Assembly (NCBI GenBank): GCA_944324495.1 | Contig: CALUWN010000012.1 | Coordinates: forward strand, 1 to 60,719 | Length of the DNA: 60,719 nucleotides | Direction of reading: 5' to 3' | Source of the DNA: an uncultured Mucispirillum sp. | GTDB taxonomy: Bacteria > Chrysiogenota > Deferribacteres > Deferribacterales > Mucispirillaceae | In this document: positions 4,800-54,272 of the stretch, one piece after another | Layout of the letters: every line of letters starts with the position of its first letter | How positions within the stretch are numbered: position 1 is the first letter of the stretch | Translations under genes and position numbers: made by a program | Notes under the pieces: model-generated | The model's input: only the letters and a program-made list of their open reading frames with translations | Database searches by the model: none | What the model was told of the DNA's origin: nothing

Positions 4800-5020
4800 A
4801 TAAATATGCGGGGGCTTGAAGGCAAATTTCGCCGAATTATTTAGTTTATATTAAAAATTACATACTTGTAATTTTTAATTTATCGTTTAGTCGCAGTAAA
4901 TGCTCCTGCACTCACTAAAGAAAAAACTTCCTGTTTTTTAAGAGGAAAAGCAAACAGGACGTTTGCGACAGAAATTTGGCTGGCTTTTTTAGAATTTTTA
5001 GGACAAAAATTTTAAAAAAG
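4800..5020. repeat. Structured non-coding stretch between the two tRNA-Leu 3' copies (divergent family E repeat)
   Basis: I see no convincing coding sequence. On the minus strand it contains CTTTAGTGAGTGCAGGAGC and ATTTACTGCGAC, then a long hairpin (AAAAATTAC/GTAATTTTT), which matches the family E repeats inside the prophage at 26770 and 31778. A TTTTTAGGACAAAAA hairpin at 4993-5010 has the loop AGGAC also seen in those repeats. The phrase GGCTTGAAGG occurs at 4812 and again at 5097. Confidence 0.5.
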
Positions 5021-12561: not shown

Positions 12562-13134
12562 ATGAAAAAATTATTAATTTTATTAACAGCTGTTATTACA
12601 GTTTTTACTGCTGGCAAAAGTTTTGCTCAAAACAATCCAAAAATATTAATTGACACTTCTATGGGCCAAATTGAAGCAGAGCTTTATCCTGATAAAGCAC
12701 CTGTAACAGTGCAAAATTTCTTAGCTTATGTTAATAATAAGTATTATGACGGGCTTGTATTTCACCGCGTTATTGATGGATTTATGATTCAAGGTGGTGG
12801 TATGAATGCTGAATTAAAAGAAAAAGCAACATTAAACCCTATTAAAATAGAAAGCGATAACGGGCTTAAAAATACAAGAGGTACTCTTGCTATGGCTAGA
12901 ACTAATGACCCTAACTCTGCTACAAGCCAGTTTTTTATAAACTTAGTAGACAATCCATTTTTAGACTATAAAGCACCTACTATGGCAGGTTATGGATATG
13001 CTGTATTTGGTAAAGTTACTAAAGGGCAAGATGTAGTTGATAAAATAGGTAAAGTTAAAACAGGAAGCAAAGGTTTTCATCAAGATGTACCACTTACACC
13101 TGTTACAATAAAAAGTATAAGGGTTATTAAATAA
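12562..13134 (+). CDS. Periplasmic cyclophilin-type peptidyl-prolyl isomerase
   Basis: Catalyses cis-trans isomerisation of prolyl bonds. Residues 1-22 (MKKLLILLTAVITVFTAGKSFAQ) form a signal peptide with an AQ cleavage site, so the 168-residue mature enzyme is periplasmic. The cyclophilin core shows VFHRVIDGFMIQGGG, AMARTNDPNSATSQFFINLVDN and GYAVFGKVTKG, the compact bacterial PpiA/PpiB type. The active-site Arg is in FHRVIDGF and the Gln in SQFFI. Its stop overlaps the start of a second, cytoplasmic cyclophilin of very similar sequence, an evident tandem duplication. Confidence 0.92.
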   Translation: MKKLLILLTAVITVFTAGKSFAQNNPKILIDTSMGQIEAELYPDKAPVTVQNFLAYVNNKYYDGLVFHRVIDGFMIQGGGMNAELKEKATLNPIKIESDNGLKNTRGTLAMARTNDPNSATSQFFINLVDNPFLDYKAPTMAGYGYAVFGKVTKGQDVVDKIGKVKTGSKGFHQDVPLTPVTIKSIRVIK

Positions 13135-13766
13135 TGGCAGAAGAAAAAGAAACTAAAAAGAAAACAGAAGCTAAAAAAACAACTACAAAAAAAAGTACTG
13201 CTAAAAAAACAGCAGCAAAAACAACTAAAACACCAAAGGCTGCTAAAACAAAAAAAGCTGAAAGCAGTAATATAAATATATTAATGAAAACTAATATTGG
13301 TGATATAGAGCTTGAACTATACCCTGATAAAGCCCCTATTACTGTTGAAAACTTTGTATCATACATTAATGACAAGTTTTTTGACGGGCTTATTTTCCAC
13401 AGAGTAATAGACGGTTTTATGATTCAAGGTGGTGGCTTTGATGACAGGCTTTCACAAAAGCAGACTAAATCACCTATTAAAATTGAAAGCGATAATGGGC
13501 TTAAAAATGACCGTGGCACAATTGCTATGGCTAGAACTAACGACCCAAACTCTGCTACAAGCCAGTTTTTTATAAACCTTGTGGATAACAACTTTTTAAA
13601 CTTCCGTTCCCCTGATGTTTCAGGATATGGGTATGCTGTATTTGGCAAAGTTACAAAAGGAATGGATGTAGTTGATAAAATAGGCACTGTACCTACTGGT
13701 TCTTTTGGATATATGCAGGATGTGCCAAAATATCTTATACAAATAGAAACAATCACTTTAATATAG
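13134..13766 (+). CDS. Cytoplasmic cyclophilin with lysine/alanine-rich N-terminal tail
   Basis: A 210-residue peptidyl-prolyl isomerase. Residues 2-42 form a repetitive Lys-Thr-Ala tail resembling a histone H1 terminus. The cyclophilin domain follows, with motifs nearly identical to the preceding gene (FHRVIDGFMIQGGG, ARTNDPNSATSQFFINLVDNN). It has no signal peptide, so it should stay in the cytoplasm, where the basic tail could bind nucleic acid or ribosomes; that is inference. It is coupled to the upstream cyclophilin (TAATG) and is probably its paralogue after duplication, relocated by loss of the signal and gain of the tail. Confidence 0.88.
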   Translation: MAEEKETKKKTEAKKTTTKKSTAKKTAAKTTKTPKAAKTKKAESSNINILMKTNIGDIELELYPDKAPITVENFVSYINDKFFDGLIFHRVIDGFMIQGGGFDDRLSQKQTKSPIKIESDNGLKNDRGTIAMARTNDPNSATSQFFINLVDNNFLNFRSPDVSGYGYAVFGKVTKGMDVVDKIGTVPTGSFGYMQDVPKYLIQIETITLI

Positions 13767-23301: not shown

Positions 23302-24162
23302 TTACATCCTAATTGCAAAAACGTTGCAAAAATAAGGGTTGCTTCTGTTTCCTCCCTGCATTTGCAATGTTTGTATTTTATAAAGCCCATTTAATAATGG
23401 CAGCTTGCGGCTTTGTATCTGCACCATGCCGCCAACTTTTAATCCTGGCATCAATAAACATTTAAAATTAATACCCTGCATTGATGCTTGTGGAGTTCCA
23501 ATTAGTCCGCTGTCACCACTGATTAAAATAACATCGCTACCAGGAACAGCGGTATCTTCTACGTTTAATATATTATCGCTGTAATATATTCTTTTTGTGT
23601 GTGGCACTGTTCTTTGTAAATTACTTAAAAGCTGAAACACTGTGCCTTTAAAGTTATATTCAGAAAATGTTTTATCTTCTGCGGTAAAATTAAGCGGTGC
23701 TTGCAATACTGCTGCTGCTTTTTGGCATATACTCATAAGTGTAGCAGGCTTTTCATTTATTTCTATTTGGGAAATTCTTGAGGCATCATATCCCGGTTTT
23801 ACATCAAGAGTCACACTCATATCTGGAGTATCTAAATTAGATGATACTTTAAATACACCACCAGTAAAGATTACTCCGTAATCAGATTCATAACCTGCCA
23901 TAAGCTGCACATAGTTTCTTAATGGCTTTTCTTTTCCTATATTCATCATACACGTTGATAATGCACCAGCATCTTCAAGCGGAAGCCCTGTTATTGTTAT
24001 TGTGCCTCTATCTCCAAGACTACCCATTGTTTTTGTAATATTAAAATCTATCTTTAAATTAAACTTATCTACAAGTGCATCAGAGTATGTTTTAATTATA
24101 TTATTTACTTGTATATCTAATGCTACTTTTCTTTTAAAAAGGGCAGAATATGATAAATTCAT
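23302..24162 (-). CDS. Baseplate hub protein (Mu gp44-like)
   Basis: A 286-residue protein in the position of the hub that carries the spike. Beta-rich segments include FNLKIDFNITKTMGSLGDRGTITITGLP near residue 35 and YVQLMAGYESDYGVIFTGGVFKVSS near residue 85. The end PGLKVGGMVQIQSRKLPLLNGLYKIQTLQMQGG is reminiscent of hub domain folds. An AGGTGA site lies upstream of the ATG. The next gene (spike) follows 20 bases later. Confidence 0.72.
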   Translation of the reverse strand: MNLSYSALFKRKVALDIQVNNIIKTYSDALVDKFNLKIDFNITKTMGSLGDRGTITITGLPLEDAGALSTCMMNIGKEKPLRNYVQLMAGYESDYGVIFTGGVFKVSSNLDTPDMSVTLDVKPGYDASRISQIEINEKPATLMSICQKAAAVLQAPLNFTAEDKTFSEYNFKGTVFQLLSNLQRTVPHTKRIYYSDNILNVEDTAVPGSDVILISGDSGLIGTPQASMQGINFKCLLMPGLKVGGMVQIQSRKLPLLNGLYKIQTLQMQGGNRSNPYFCNVFAIRM

Positions 24163-24173
24163 AAATCACCTTA

Positions 24174-24473
24174 TCAGTTTACAATATAATATAATTTGTA
24201 ATCACTACCAAAGCCTGTATAATAAACATCTGATGTGCTTTCTGTATCAAATATTAAAGCACCTTTAACACCTTTATATTTAAAACTTTCAGTCATATCT
24301 ATATTTGCATCACATCTTAAACCTTGAAAAATAACATTATTATTTACTGATAAATCCATATAAGTTTTGCTATTTAAAGAGCGTATTTTTATTCTTAAAT
24401 TTTCATCAGCAATAACTGTGGTTATTTCAAAATTTGGTGTATTCCGTGGTAAACTTATTTCATAAATAATCAT
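24174..24473 (-). CDS. Baseplate plug-like small protein
   Basis: A 99-residue beta-rich protein starting MIIYEISLPRNTPNFEITTV. It resembles the small baseplate-plug proteins found between the Dit-like protein and the hub in contractile phages; the assignment is from position and pattern only. Its first 18 codons are duplicated in altered form at 24649-24702, with two structured repeats in between, so this copy is the complete one. A GAGAG site precedes the ATG. Confidence 0.6.
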   Translation of the reverse strand: MIIYEISLPRNTPNFEITTVIADENLRIKIRSLNSKTYMDLSVNNNVIFQGLRCDANIDMTESFKYKGVKGALIFDTESTSDVYYTGFGSDYKLYYIVN

Positions 24474-24480
24474 AATCTCT

Positions 24481-24647
24481 CACTAAGCCACACGATGTGG
24501 CGTCTTTAGTAAGGGTTAAGGGGAGCGTTTTTTTGCGACGCAAGGACTTTCCGACCAAATCGGGAGGAAATATAAGTCCGTAGCTGGACGTTTCCCCGTA
24601 AACCCGCTAAATAAAAAATTCACGGAAGAATTTTTTATTATATTTAA
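24481..24647 (+). repeat. Family E repeat with a family B repeat nested in its loop
   Basis: The outer E parts are a CCAC/GTGG hairpin, CTTTAGTAAGGGTT, then AAACCCGCTAAAT and a hairpin AAAAATT/AATTTTT around the loop CACGGA. Inside the GGGG/CCCC stem lies a B element (24520-24597): GCGACG, the stem GGACTT/AAGTCC, and the inner hairpin TTCC-CGACCAAATCG-GGAGGAA. This fills the gap between a truncated gene copy and its full copy. Confidence 0.7.
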
Positions 24648-24702
24648 TAGTTATTTCAAAATTTGGTGTATTTTGTGGTAAACTTATTTCATATATGCTC
24701 AT
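24607..24702 (-). pseudogene. Duplicated 5' end of the baseplate plug-like gene
   Basis: A 31-codon frame beginning MSIYEISLPQNTPNFEIT, nearly the same as the start of the gene at 24174-24473, then running into repeat sequence and stopping at 24607. About 47 of 54 bases match between 24420-24473 and 24649-24702. The copy starts one base after the stop of the upstream gene, in the original operon position, so it looks like the remnant of the original start after an insertion with duplication. Confidence 0.7.
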
Positions 24703-24703
24703 A

Positions 24704-25258
24704 TCAATTTACCCCAGTAATCATATTTACAAGCTTCAGAGCAAGAGTTTTATTATCTTTAACTTCTTTTGCCTGAACCTGACCTAATAAACTGGTTTCA
24801 GCATCCTGCACGCTGGCAGCTTGTTCTGCAGTAATAGCAGTAGTTAATGGCATTACAAATGGTATCTGTTGCATTTCTATTTGTAGCTTATAGCTAGAAG
24901 CATTATCTGCATTAGATACTTTAGATAGTGATAAAAACTGCATATTATCATACACGCCACCCATATAATATACAGTAAATAACTGATTAGCTTTCAATGC
25001 ACTATCTATCATTTGTAACACAAGCTGGTATTTCATAATGGACACATAGCCATTTAATGACAATTTAGCAGGCGTAGACCAAATTGTATCACTAATTTTC
25101 ATGTTCGCATCTACTGGGTGCTGTGGTATCTCCCACACACAATCTTCTTTATCTTCAGTAAATATTATAGGAAATATTACACCATTATTTTCAATTCTAA
25201 TCGCTCTTCTAATAGATGCTATTGATTGCAGCGAAAACCGTGGTAATGTAAAAGGCAT
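24704..25258 (-). CDS. Dit-like/baseplate distal tail protein
   Basis: A 184-residue protein after the tape measure gene. The pattern VWEIPQHPVDANMKISDTIWSTPAKLSLNGYVSI (about 42-75), then FTVYYMGGVYDNMQFLSLSKVSNADNASSYKLQIEMQQI, matches the N-terminal domain of Dit-like tail proteins. These form the ring joining tube and hub. The start overlaps the tape measure stop (ATG at 25258) and a GGAG site precedes it. Mu gpN (DNA circularisation protein) occupies the comparable position. Confidence 0.7.
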   Translation of the reverse strand: MPFTLPRFSLQSIASIRRAIRIENNGVIFPIIFTEDKEDCVWEIPQHPVDANMKISDTIWSTPAKLSLNGYVSIMKYQLVLQMIDSALKANQLFTVYYMGGVYDNMQFLSLSKVSNADNASSYKLQIEMQQIPFVMPLTTAITAEQAASVQDAETSLLGQVQAKEVKDNKTLALKLVNMITGVN

Positions 25259-26757: not shown

Positions 26758-26769
26758 AGAGTGGATACA

Positions 26770-26855
26770 GGCTTTTAGGACAAAAGCCCTTTAGTAAATG
26801 CGGGAGCATTCACTGCGACCAAATGCCTAAACAAAAAAACACGGATGTTTTTTTG
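26770..26855 (+). repeat. Family E structured repeat
   Basis: A GGCTTTT/AAAAGCC hairpin with loop AGGAC, then CTTTAGTAAATGCGGGAGC, CACTGCGACCAAATGCC, and a hairpin of eight A/T pairs around CACGGATG. The loops match the copies at 24487, 30907 and 31778, whereas the stems differ. Confidence 0.65.
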
Positions 26856-26971
26856 TTATTGTTTAATAAGATGTAGAAATAATTTAAAAGTTGTGATATA
26901 AGAAAAGTGCAGTGTAAACTTAAGGCGGTAAAGCTCGCATCCTTTATTTTATAAGAAAGGGGGTGAGATAT

Positions 26972-30393: not shown

Positions 30394-31152
30394 TTAATTT
30401 GTTTTTAAAAATCTATCTACAAAAGTTGTATATGCGGGGTTAGTTTTTAATATGCCTACTTCATTAACTTCAACCACTACTTTTTTTAAAACAGTATCGC
30501 TTAATTCAACTTTGCTCATTTTTGTAATAAATATCTCAAACTGTGCAATCTGCACCCATTTTTTGTATGTATTAAAATCTGCTTGAAAAGTTATATCAGA
30601 CCATATAGGCATAAGTTCATATTTATAATTATTAAAAAATAAATCTCTTGCTTGTGAGCTTTTTAAATATGTTTGCAGTGTTTCAGCTATATCAAAAGCA
30701 GACATATTATCAGTGTTCCATTCTATAGTTTTATAAATATCTACTTCAAAACACACTTCAGTTACTGCATCAATAAGCACTGTAAGGGGACTTCCAAAGC
30801 CAGCCCCCTTTCCATCTTCCCCCGCTTTTAATGTTGTTGCTCCAAATTTGTGTGAAAATTCTCCGCAACACAAATCATCTTGATTTAGTAACCGCTCGCC
30901 AGCTAAAGCACAGGATGTGCTGTCGCTTGCGTAAGGGTTGAGGGGTTTCCCCGAAAACCCGTTTTTTACTAAATCCACGGATGGATTTAGTAATCTTTCT
31001 CCTGATAATGTTAAGTTTTTTATTTTTTTGGGTGCAAATGTTACCACGCCACCATCTACATCTGCTTCTATATCTTGGTATGGATATAATGCTTTAAACG
31101 GCTGCACAATATCACTGACAATATTGTATATTGATGCAATCATTTCTTTCAT
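30394..31152 (-). CDS. Neck/tail terminator-like protein with an in-frame repeat insertion
   Basis: A 252-residue protein upstream of the sheath gene, matching LIC12616-type neck proteins by position. The conserved part runs from AVTEVCFEVDIYKTIEWNTD to KVVVEVNEVGILKTNP. Near residues 48-85 a family E repeat is inserted in frame (DNA 30907-30991). Around it, gene-like phrases recur: LSGERLLNPSVDL before and LAGERLLNQDD after. The inserted segment has low-complexity wording (NGFSGKPLNPYASDSTSC) and probably forms a surface loop. AGGAG lies 5 bases before the ATG. Confidence 0.65.
   Translation of the reverse strand: MKEMIASIYNIVSDIVQPFKALYPYQDIEADVDGGVVTFAPKKIKNLTLSGERLLNPSVDLVKNGFSGKPLNPYASDSTSCALAGERLLNQDDLCCGEFSHKFGATTLKAGEDGKGAGFGSPLTVLIDAVTEVCFEVDIYKTIEWNTDNMSAFDIAETLQTYLKSSQARDLFFNNYKYELMPIWSDITFQADFNTYKKWVQIAQFEIFITKMSKVELSDTVLKKVVVEVNEVGILKTNPAYTTFVDRFLKTN
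30907..30991 (+). repeat. Family E repeat inserted in frame in the neck gene
   Basis: AGCAC/GTGCT hairpin, GTAAGGGTTGAGGGG pairing with CCCC and AACCC, then ACTAAATC-CACGGATG-GATTTAGT. About 27 bases of gene sequence (GATTTAGTAA plus related bases) occur on both sides, at 30884 and 30983. Confidence 0.7.
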
Positions 31153-31756: not shown

Positions 31757-31777
31757 TGAAGTATTATTTTAGATAAA

Positions 31778-31867
31778 TTTTTAGGATAAAAACTCTTTAG
31801 TAAGTGCGGGAGTATTTACTACGACCAAACGCTAAATAAAAAATACACGGATGTATTTTTTATTATT
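31778..31867 (+). repeat. Family E structured repeat
   Basis: TTTTTAGGATAAAAA hairpin, CTTTAGTAAGTGCGGGAG, ATTTACTACGACCAAACGC, then a long A/T hairpin around CACGGATG. It is closest to the copy at 26770. Confidence 0.65.
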
Positions 31868-32635: not shown

Positions 32636-32668
32636 ATTTTTTTATTATTTTTACTTACTATTTTTTAA

Positions 32669-43396: not shown

Positions 43397-43865
43397 AACT
43401 TATCACCTTTGATAGCACTGGGGCGGTGCGGTCTTCCGCCCCAGCTTTTGAGCCATTGTGCAAATTTATTTCGGAGGGGAGCGTTTCCCAGCGACGGCTG
43501 CCTGTTTCCCGACCGAGTAGGGAGGAATCAGAAACAGCACAGGCTGGAAGTTGTGGGAAAAATGCCCCATTTTTACCAACATTATAAGTAGGCTCAATAC
43601 TTAAAAATGTTAGTAAATTCTCTCTTGCTTTTATCCTTTCATTACATATACTTTCTGCTTCTAATACCTGCTCTTGCAGGCTTGCAATATTTTTATCTAT
43701 TTCAGTAATAGCAGCATCTCTTAACTTTATTATTTCAGTAAGCCTTGCATTTTCTTTTGTAAGTGTATTATTACTTGCTTTTTCAATACCTAAAAGCACA
43801 GATAAAACCACCAGCATAGCAAAAAGAAAAAGTATTATATATTTACTTAACACATTTATATTCAT
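43317..43865 (-). CDS. Rz-like inner-membrane spanin with an in-frame repeat
   Basis: About 182 residues. One N-terminal membrane helix (about 5-25) is followed by a periplasmic coiled coil (NNTLTKENARLTEIIKLRDAAITEIDKNIASLQEQVLEAESICNERIKA). From about residue 97 to 130 the coding sequence passes through a family B repeat (PQLPACAVSDSSLLGRETGS), which is not spanin-like. The C-terminus overlaps Rz1. The repeat probably lengthened the periplasmic domain or replaced its end, so function is uncertain. An ATG at 43865 follows AAGGA. Confidence 0.68.
   Translation of the reverse strand: MNINVLSKYIILFLFAMLVVLSVLLGIEKASNNTLTKENARLTEIIKLRDAAITEIDKNIASLQEQVLEAESICNERIKARENLLTFLSIEPTYNVGKNGAFFPQLPACAVSDSSLLGRETGSRRWETLPSEINLHNGSKAGAEDRTAPVLSKVISYEKSSYAINSINSYWVQFTLASDSKK
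43476..43568 (+). repeat. Family B structured repeat in the Rz gene
   Basis: Outer pairs GGGG and TTTCCCA with TGGGAAA and CCCC; GCGACGGCTGCC; stem TGTTTC/GAAACA; inner CCGACCGAGTAGGGAGGAA; GCACAGGCTGGAAG. It is nearly the same as the copy at 54115 apart from the stems, which are replaced on both sides. Confidence 0.8.
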
Positions 43866-43889
43866 GCTTAACAAATCCTTTTTATCTAT

Positions 43890-43980
43890 AATAAAAAATC
43901 CGTCCTAGATTTTTTATTGAAACGCACCCACGAAGTAAATTCGTTTGGGTGCTTACGCTTTGCGACAGGACATCCTGCCC
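43890..43980 (+). repeat. Family G structured repeat
   Basis: A perfect 11-bp stem AATAAAAAATC/GATTTTTTATT with loop CGTCCTA; CGCACCCACG pairs with CGTTTGGGTGCG-type bases; then GACAGGACATCCTGCC. Together with the next element it fills the 234-base gap between the Rz and endolysin genes. Confidence 0.65.
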
Positions 43981-43994
43981 TTTTTATCCACCAT

Positions 43995-48792: not shown

Positions 48793-48910
48793 TAATATCT
48801 TTTGCCTTTACTCGTTGTTGTTTTTAAATCTGCCTGCGGTCATTTACTTATTTTGTAAACTCCCTTGTCAGATTTAAAAGCCGCCTAGATTAAAGCCAAA
48901 ATCTTATTAT
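48791..48910 (-). repeat. Family A structured repeat, copy 8 (inverted)
   Basis: The only copy in reverse orientation. On the minus strand: AATAAGATTTTGGCTTTAATC against AAAGGCAAAAGATATT; TAGGCGGCTT; second stem TTTAAATCTG/CAGATTTAAA; hairpin GTTTAC/GTAAAT; CAACAACGAG. Confidence 0.8.
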
Positions 48911-48933
48911 TATTTAATATTATGGAGTGTCAA

Positions 48934-54072: not shown

Positions 54073-54272
54073 TTGTAAAGTTTTTTCCTTTGCTGCTTAT
54101 GATATTAGATTTATGTGCCGCAGGTGAGCATAGCGAAGACTGCCAAATTCCCTCCCGAATAGGAAGGAATCAGAATTTGCACAGGCTGGAAGTTTACCTG
54201 TGGCACGGTGACATCAGGCATTTTATTTACTGGGTTGCAGCTGCCACATTAACTGCAACAGTTACATTTTAA
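54069..54272 (+). CDS. Small conserved Mu-type membrane protein with repeat insertion
   Basis: A 67-residue protein, coupled to Gam (ATGA). Leaving out the family B repeat gives a natural short membrane protein: FFPLLLMILDLCAA before and WHGDIRHFIYWVAAATLTAT after, a layout usual between Gam and GemA in Mu-like phages. The inserted part adds about 25 polar residues (SEDCQIPSRIGRNQNLHRLE) without breaking the frame. Function is unknown. Confidence 0.7.
   Translation: MIVKFFPLLLMILDLCAAGEHSEDCQIPSRIGRNQNLHRLEVYLWHGDIRHFIYWVAAATLTATVTF
54115..54206 (+). repeat. Family B structured repeat inside a small membrane gene
   Basis: Outer stem GTGCC.CAGGT with ACCTG.GGCAC; GCGAAGACTGCC; stem AAATTC/GAATTT; inner CCTCCCGAATAGGAAGGAA; GCACAGGCTGGAAG. 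Confidence 0.8.

Follow-up and report, generated by a model that had tools for sequence, protein, structure and literature searches.

Long, variable direct repeats flanking a hairpin repeat at gene starts and gene ends in Mucispirillum

Bacterial target duplications usually have a fixed, short length. In fungal mitochondria, elements of the Allomyces atp6 type bring a replacement gene end upon insertion, and the gene stays functional. Variable duplications of 3–26 bp are found at the YPAL/RU-2 repeats of Yersinia, which are non-coding, measure 100–200 bp, contain internal inverted repeats, have no TA ends and occupy sites that are empty in some relatives and filled in others (PMC2229807). Rickettsia palindromic elements (RPE), which are hairpin repeats, can occupy protein genes without loss of the reading frame, and the bacterial MITEs (Correia/NEMIS, ERIC, RUP) are small, non-autonomous repeats with target duplications (PMC2229807).

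The repeat analysed here, E, is a non-coding, AT-rich element of approximately 110 nt with three hairpins. By description, not by sequence, YPAL/RU-2 appears to be the nearest described kind: E likewise has internal hairpins (three, with compensatory changes) and no terminal TA motif, its fairly constant ends carrying a 5' extension of the TTATTAAACT type. However, duplications at E measure about 25–117 bp, beyond the range of YPAL/RU-2, and E further differs in its length (168 bp for the YPAL repeat), its base composition, its tandem arrays and its occurrence, within its family, in Mucispirillum only. One E copy (30902–30997) resembles RPE in lying in frame inside an open reading frame; the target duplication of RPE is listed as unknown, whereas this copy has a 25-bp duplication. 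E departs from MITEs, with their terminal inverted repeats and TA ends, in that its hairpins are internal and its duplications long and of variable length. No terminal inverted repeat of E was evident, and searches for RVT_1 and Y1_Tnp pointed to no parent element. Retroposition (TPRT) needs a host reverse transcriptase, but RVT_1 (PF00078) was absent from all ten Mucispirillum genomes, each of which bears E, and present in three of 14 control genomes; a reverse transcriptase was therefore rejected as the mover of E. REP/RAYT systems use a Y1 transposase and make no target duplication, whereas duplications are present at E. Y1_Tnp was patchy in the genus and absent from G007, the genome in which E is commonest, and an IS200-type Y1 transposase was rejected as mover on that ground. 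Unlike the Allomyces atp6-type elements, which encode endonucleases, the E insert encodes nothing recognised and duplicates the resident gene start.

A duplicated gene start in a prophage baseplate gene

The window, the whole 60.7-kb stretch of DNA that was analysed, is contig C12 of a 2.43-Mb Mucispirillum genome. A direct repeat at 24421–24474 and 24650–24703 was identical at 49 of 54 positions with a spacing of 229 bp, and was unique: nowhere else in the window did two 54-mers within 600 bp of each other agree at 49 or more positions, and three shuffles yielded none. An earlier note had described a duplicated gene start of about 54 bp at this position; the duplication itself was recovered, with coordinates that the note had placed one base too low and an identity that it had put slightly low, at 47/54. 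All genes around the insertion lie on the minus strand, and the copy at 24650–24703 (U) is upstream in transcription. As the note had also claimed, U opens a 31-codon dead-end frame and the copy at 24421–24474 (D) starts the whole baseplate protein; translation placed the TAG stop of the dead-end frame inside the repeat, and the intact protein (24473..24174) has 99 aa and matches PF22479. The insert between both copies occupies 24475–24649, and a covariance model of E matched 24482–24642. Its division into E and a nested repeat, B, rests on G008 (locus L012), which carries E without B. The features of the locus are:

24650 to 24703, minus strand: U, upstream gene-start copy of the resident-allele type (matches D at 49/54 and the empty-site allele of L010 at 52/54 positions)
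24607 to 24702, minus strand: 31-codon dead-end frame, beginning in U and stopping inside E (translation)
24590 to 24649, minus strand: first part of E, with hairpin A (loop TTCC) and the 5' side of hairpin B (60/60 identical to E of L012)
about 24524 to 24589, minus strand: nested repeat B in the loop of E hairpin B, missing in G008 (comparison with G008; loop preference of repeat B)
24475 to 24523, minus strand: second part of E, with the 3' side of hairpin B and hairpin C (CCACATCGTGTGG) (98% identical to L012)
24421 to 24474, minus strand: D, downstream gene-start copy that serves the intact gene (52/54 positions shared with D of G008)
24174 to 24473, minus strand: intact baseplate plug gene, Pam3_gp18 family, 99 aa (PF22479 match)

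The plug gene is of the Pam3 gp18 type (PF22479, E-value 3e-15, 56.8 bits at a cut-off of 24.2). It lies between the gene of a Dit-like protein, upstream, and that of a gp41-like hub, downstream, which indicated a myovirus-type prophage. A DNA search of annotated phages with positions 24000–25000 gave no match, and a search of viral contigs for the hub protein found none.

Relatives without the insertion, with which the earlier note had proposed comparison, were available: four related prophages (L008, L009, L010, L011) had one gene start and no insert. G008 carried E and both gene starts and lacked the inner 66 bp (B), indicating that E arrived first and that B entered the loop of its middle hairpin later. 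Presence of the same junctions in two separate assemblies argued against an assembly artefact. U of the window matched the L010 allele at 52/54 positions and U of G008 matched the L009 allele at 52/54, while the two U copies matched each other at only 44/54 (81%). D, in contrast, was shared at 52/54 (96%) and E was 97–99% identical between the window and G008; identity between G000 and G008 remained high until approximately 80 bp into the gene past D and then fell to 73–85%. U thus matches local, resident alleles at 96%, and D travels with E. The simplest reading of these alleles would be that one insertion in an ancestor was carried between prophages by homologous recombination and that the resident allele took the place of the upstream copy.

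Element E and direct repeats at other loci

In an alignment of eight E copies, the outer two hairpins had NTCC-type loops and 18 of 29 hairpin pairs were changed on both sides. The search for E covered the genus Mucispirillum and its family: the covariance model detected E in all ten Mucispirillum genomes, with at least 5 to 71 matches each and the most (at least 71) in the single-contig genome G007, and gave no match in five genomes of two other genera of the family. Nothing relevant was found in the literature on Mucispirillum repeats. A preference of E for dyad targets was not supported: dyad symmetry at nine E junctions was no better than at random positions (P 0.68). In the window, E and its flanks occur elsewhere as follows:

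30902 to 30997, minus strand: second E copy, in frame inside the open reading frame 31152..30394 (site empty in G003, L135; filled in G004, L136)
30984 to 31008, minus strand: upstream copy of the 25-bp target duplication of the second E (overlap of two L135 alignments)
30882 to 30906, minus strand: downstream copy of the same duplication (overlap of two L135 alignments)
31773 to 31867, minus strand: additional E copy, at a gene's 3' end, without clear duplication
43887 to 43986, plus strand: further E copy, no clear duplication
4847 to 4942, plus strand: further E copy
26767 to 26861, minus strand: further, weaker E copy

At window positions 30882–31008, compared with L135, target sequence (TTACTAAATC) makes up the 5' arm of hairpin A and its complement the 3' arm, which gives the impression of a hairpin built, or corrected, on the target. 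The rule that the 3' arm of hairpin C always derives from the target was discarded: by eye it fits some loci of G007 and it fails at others. Tandem E arrays that are almost spacer-free occur at L105, L125 (6312–6605) and L083.

Flanking duplications, which the earlier note had suggested looking for at the other repeats, were found at E copies in unrelated genes. The start of an aminotransferase gene (PF00155) has no insert in G000, two E and three gene starts in G001, three E and four starts with a 166-bp spacing in G007, and one or two units in other genomes; such arrays of n E with n+1 copies of the flanking stretch X (2 and 3 in G001; 3 and 4 in G007) support duplication. At a baseplate V gene start the flanking repeat is identical at 56/56 positions, and no empty site with this gene start was found among orthologues. 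A peptidase M15 endolysin start shows a 36-bp duplication in three carriers, two of them orthologous, with a single X at the empty sites in G000:C7 and in the window's own paralogue; in G001 and G006, both X copies carry the same local allele. At the 3' ends of two hsdS genes, the duplications (90/90 and about 46 bp) include the stop codon. For the baseplate plug gene and the endolysin, the ribosome-binding site of D lies outside X on the E side and must therefore have been supplied or selected there.

Among 69 E arrays, 25 had an abutting repeat of 28–117 bp between their outer flanks; of 400 mismatched flank pairs, 19 gave a positive result in the same all-array test. Because many flanks in G007 hold a dispersed repeat, the analysis was repeated on independent E loci whose flanks lack known repeats: abutting direct repeats of 28–62 bp were present at 7 of these 24 loci and in none of 1461 mismatched pairs. 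The seven include four gene starts and one restriction S-gene end, and one of them, L091, is possibly what is left of an adjacent E. At the other 17 clean loci no long duplication was detected; duplication is either not obligatory, or decays, or is short there. Many E copies in G007 (L094–L120) adjoin a dispersed repeat, GTCATACTGAGC..GAAGTATCT or GTCATACTGAGC..GCGAAGTATCT. The latter is possibly a hairpin repeat in its own right and one beside which E preferentially lies. Many of the duplications in G007 consist of the dispersed repeat GTCATACTGAGC..GAAGTATCT, and two copies of it that were already there could mimic a duplication.

The earlier note had suggested that the repeats enter with a long target duplication that spares the gene. 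This held for E, with the qualifications that duplication length varies widely, that many E copies have no detectable one and that the baseplate copies were reshuffled by recombination. It did not hold for B, as none of 25 copies checked had an adjoining long direct repeat. Complementary arms of at least 6 bp enclosed 13 of 26 B copies (5% by chance), indicating that B often lies in hairpin loops, commonly those of E; B seems to use such loops as targets. Copies in hairpin loops are located at 24524–24589 in the window and at L002, L022, L026, L034, L043, L044 and L149.

Other repeats were observed in the window. A B-like pair (43490–43552 and 54132–54194) is 81% identical. A dispersed family of roughly 130 bp, AAGGCGG..GGAGTTTAC..GTAAATGA..AAAAGAT, has at least six copies, at 32660, 33634, 40193, 43032 and 44490 and, inverted, at about 48840–48922. 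Positions 12634–13049 and 13269–13684, which are 72–81% alike at a 635-bp spacing, are apparently tandem paralogous genes.

Proposed route of insertion and alternatives

It is probable that E is a mobile repeat that inserts with a long target duplication of variable length, that selection keeps those insertions that spare the gene, and that the repeats recombine later. E would enter between two staggered positions, and the intervening stretch (X, of about 25 to more than 100 bp) would be copied to both sides. Within genes, insertions would last only if X includes the gene's start region or its stop codon, or if the frame is kept. In the baseplate case, X would be the first 54 bp of the plug gene, with D keeping the gene whole and U left as a dead-end frame. 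B would later have entered the hairpin loop of E, and recombination between prophages would have swapped U for the resident allele, E and D moving as a block; such an added recombination step is needed because 5 of the 54 positions are not the same in both baseplate copies. Tandem arrays, and the matching alleles of U and D at the endolysin, would reflect later exchange between direct repeats. Gene starts look selected rather than targeted, because gene ends and an in-frame site also occur. We infer that the duplication arises in the act of insertion itself and that selection, without targeting, explains the gene-edge bias of E.

Template switching, in which a stalled replication strand moves to another E in the genome, is extended along it and then returns to its own template X bases behind its point of departure, would yield X-E-X without a transposase and is a possible, though not the favoured, source of the duplications. 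Hairpins are classic replication stall sites, and the variable length of X, the lack of a reverse transcriptase in ten genomes and of a consistently present Y1 transposase, and the target-derived 5' arm and complementary 3' arm of hairpin A at 30902 are all consistent with it. However, target deletions should then be roughly as common as duplications, and none was seen among the few empty sites at hand; moreover, the fairly constant ends of E suggest defined termini. That E brings its own gene start and forms with D a homing-like cassette, which spreads from allele to allele by homologous recombination and replaces the 5' end of the gene, would fit the baseplate locus, where E, D and the next 80 bp or so are far closer between G000 and G008 than either U or the rest of the gene. 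Yet X at other genes is that gene's own sequence, the shared local allele in both endolysin copies of G001 and G006 points to a duplication made or kept alike at the site, and the insert has no endonuclease gene; this unlikely explanation would account for spread at one site and not for origin.

Two further readings concern the upstream copy. Upstream of the aminotransferase, short frames recur, MRADFANLFHQ being one, as expected if short frame and hairpins together formed a conserved, attenuator-like regulatory leader, but upstream copies decay (ATG has become TTG in L012 and ATA in G007, and is changed in both G009 and G005), anything from 0 to 3 copies is present and the aminotransferase site is empty in G000, making a leader very improbable. 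Least credible is simple tandem gene duplication with decay of the first copy around a repeat. It would leave two homologous starts, as seen, but homology ends at the boundaries of E and the same geometry recurs at unrelated genes. Two full tandem genes in relatives, which the earlier note had named as the sign of such a history, were not encountered: the relatives have either one gene or the same 54-bp X-E-X, and this explanation was rejected.

With respect to insertion with target duplication, a more general statement is offered tentatively and is rather doubtful: that integration of a hairpin family, without a reverse transcriptase, itself makes duplications of about 25 to more than 100 bp, settles where important genes start or end, and seeds gene-start arrays that grow and shrink by recombination. 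Variable duplications of tens to more than 100 bases would point to an insertion route unlike that of ordinary transposases, and long duplications would explain how the repeats persist in working genes. Mucispirillum provides a concrete genus, with natural empty and filled sites, in which to seek the enzyme, and E shows how repeats can enter useful genes without destroying them.
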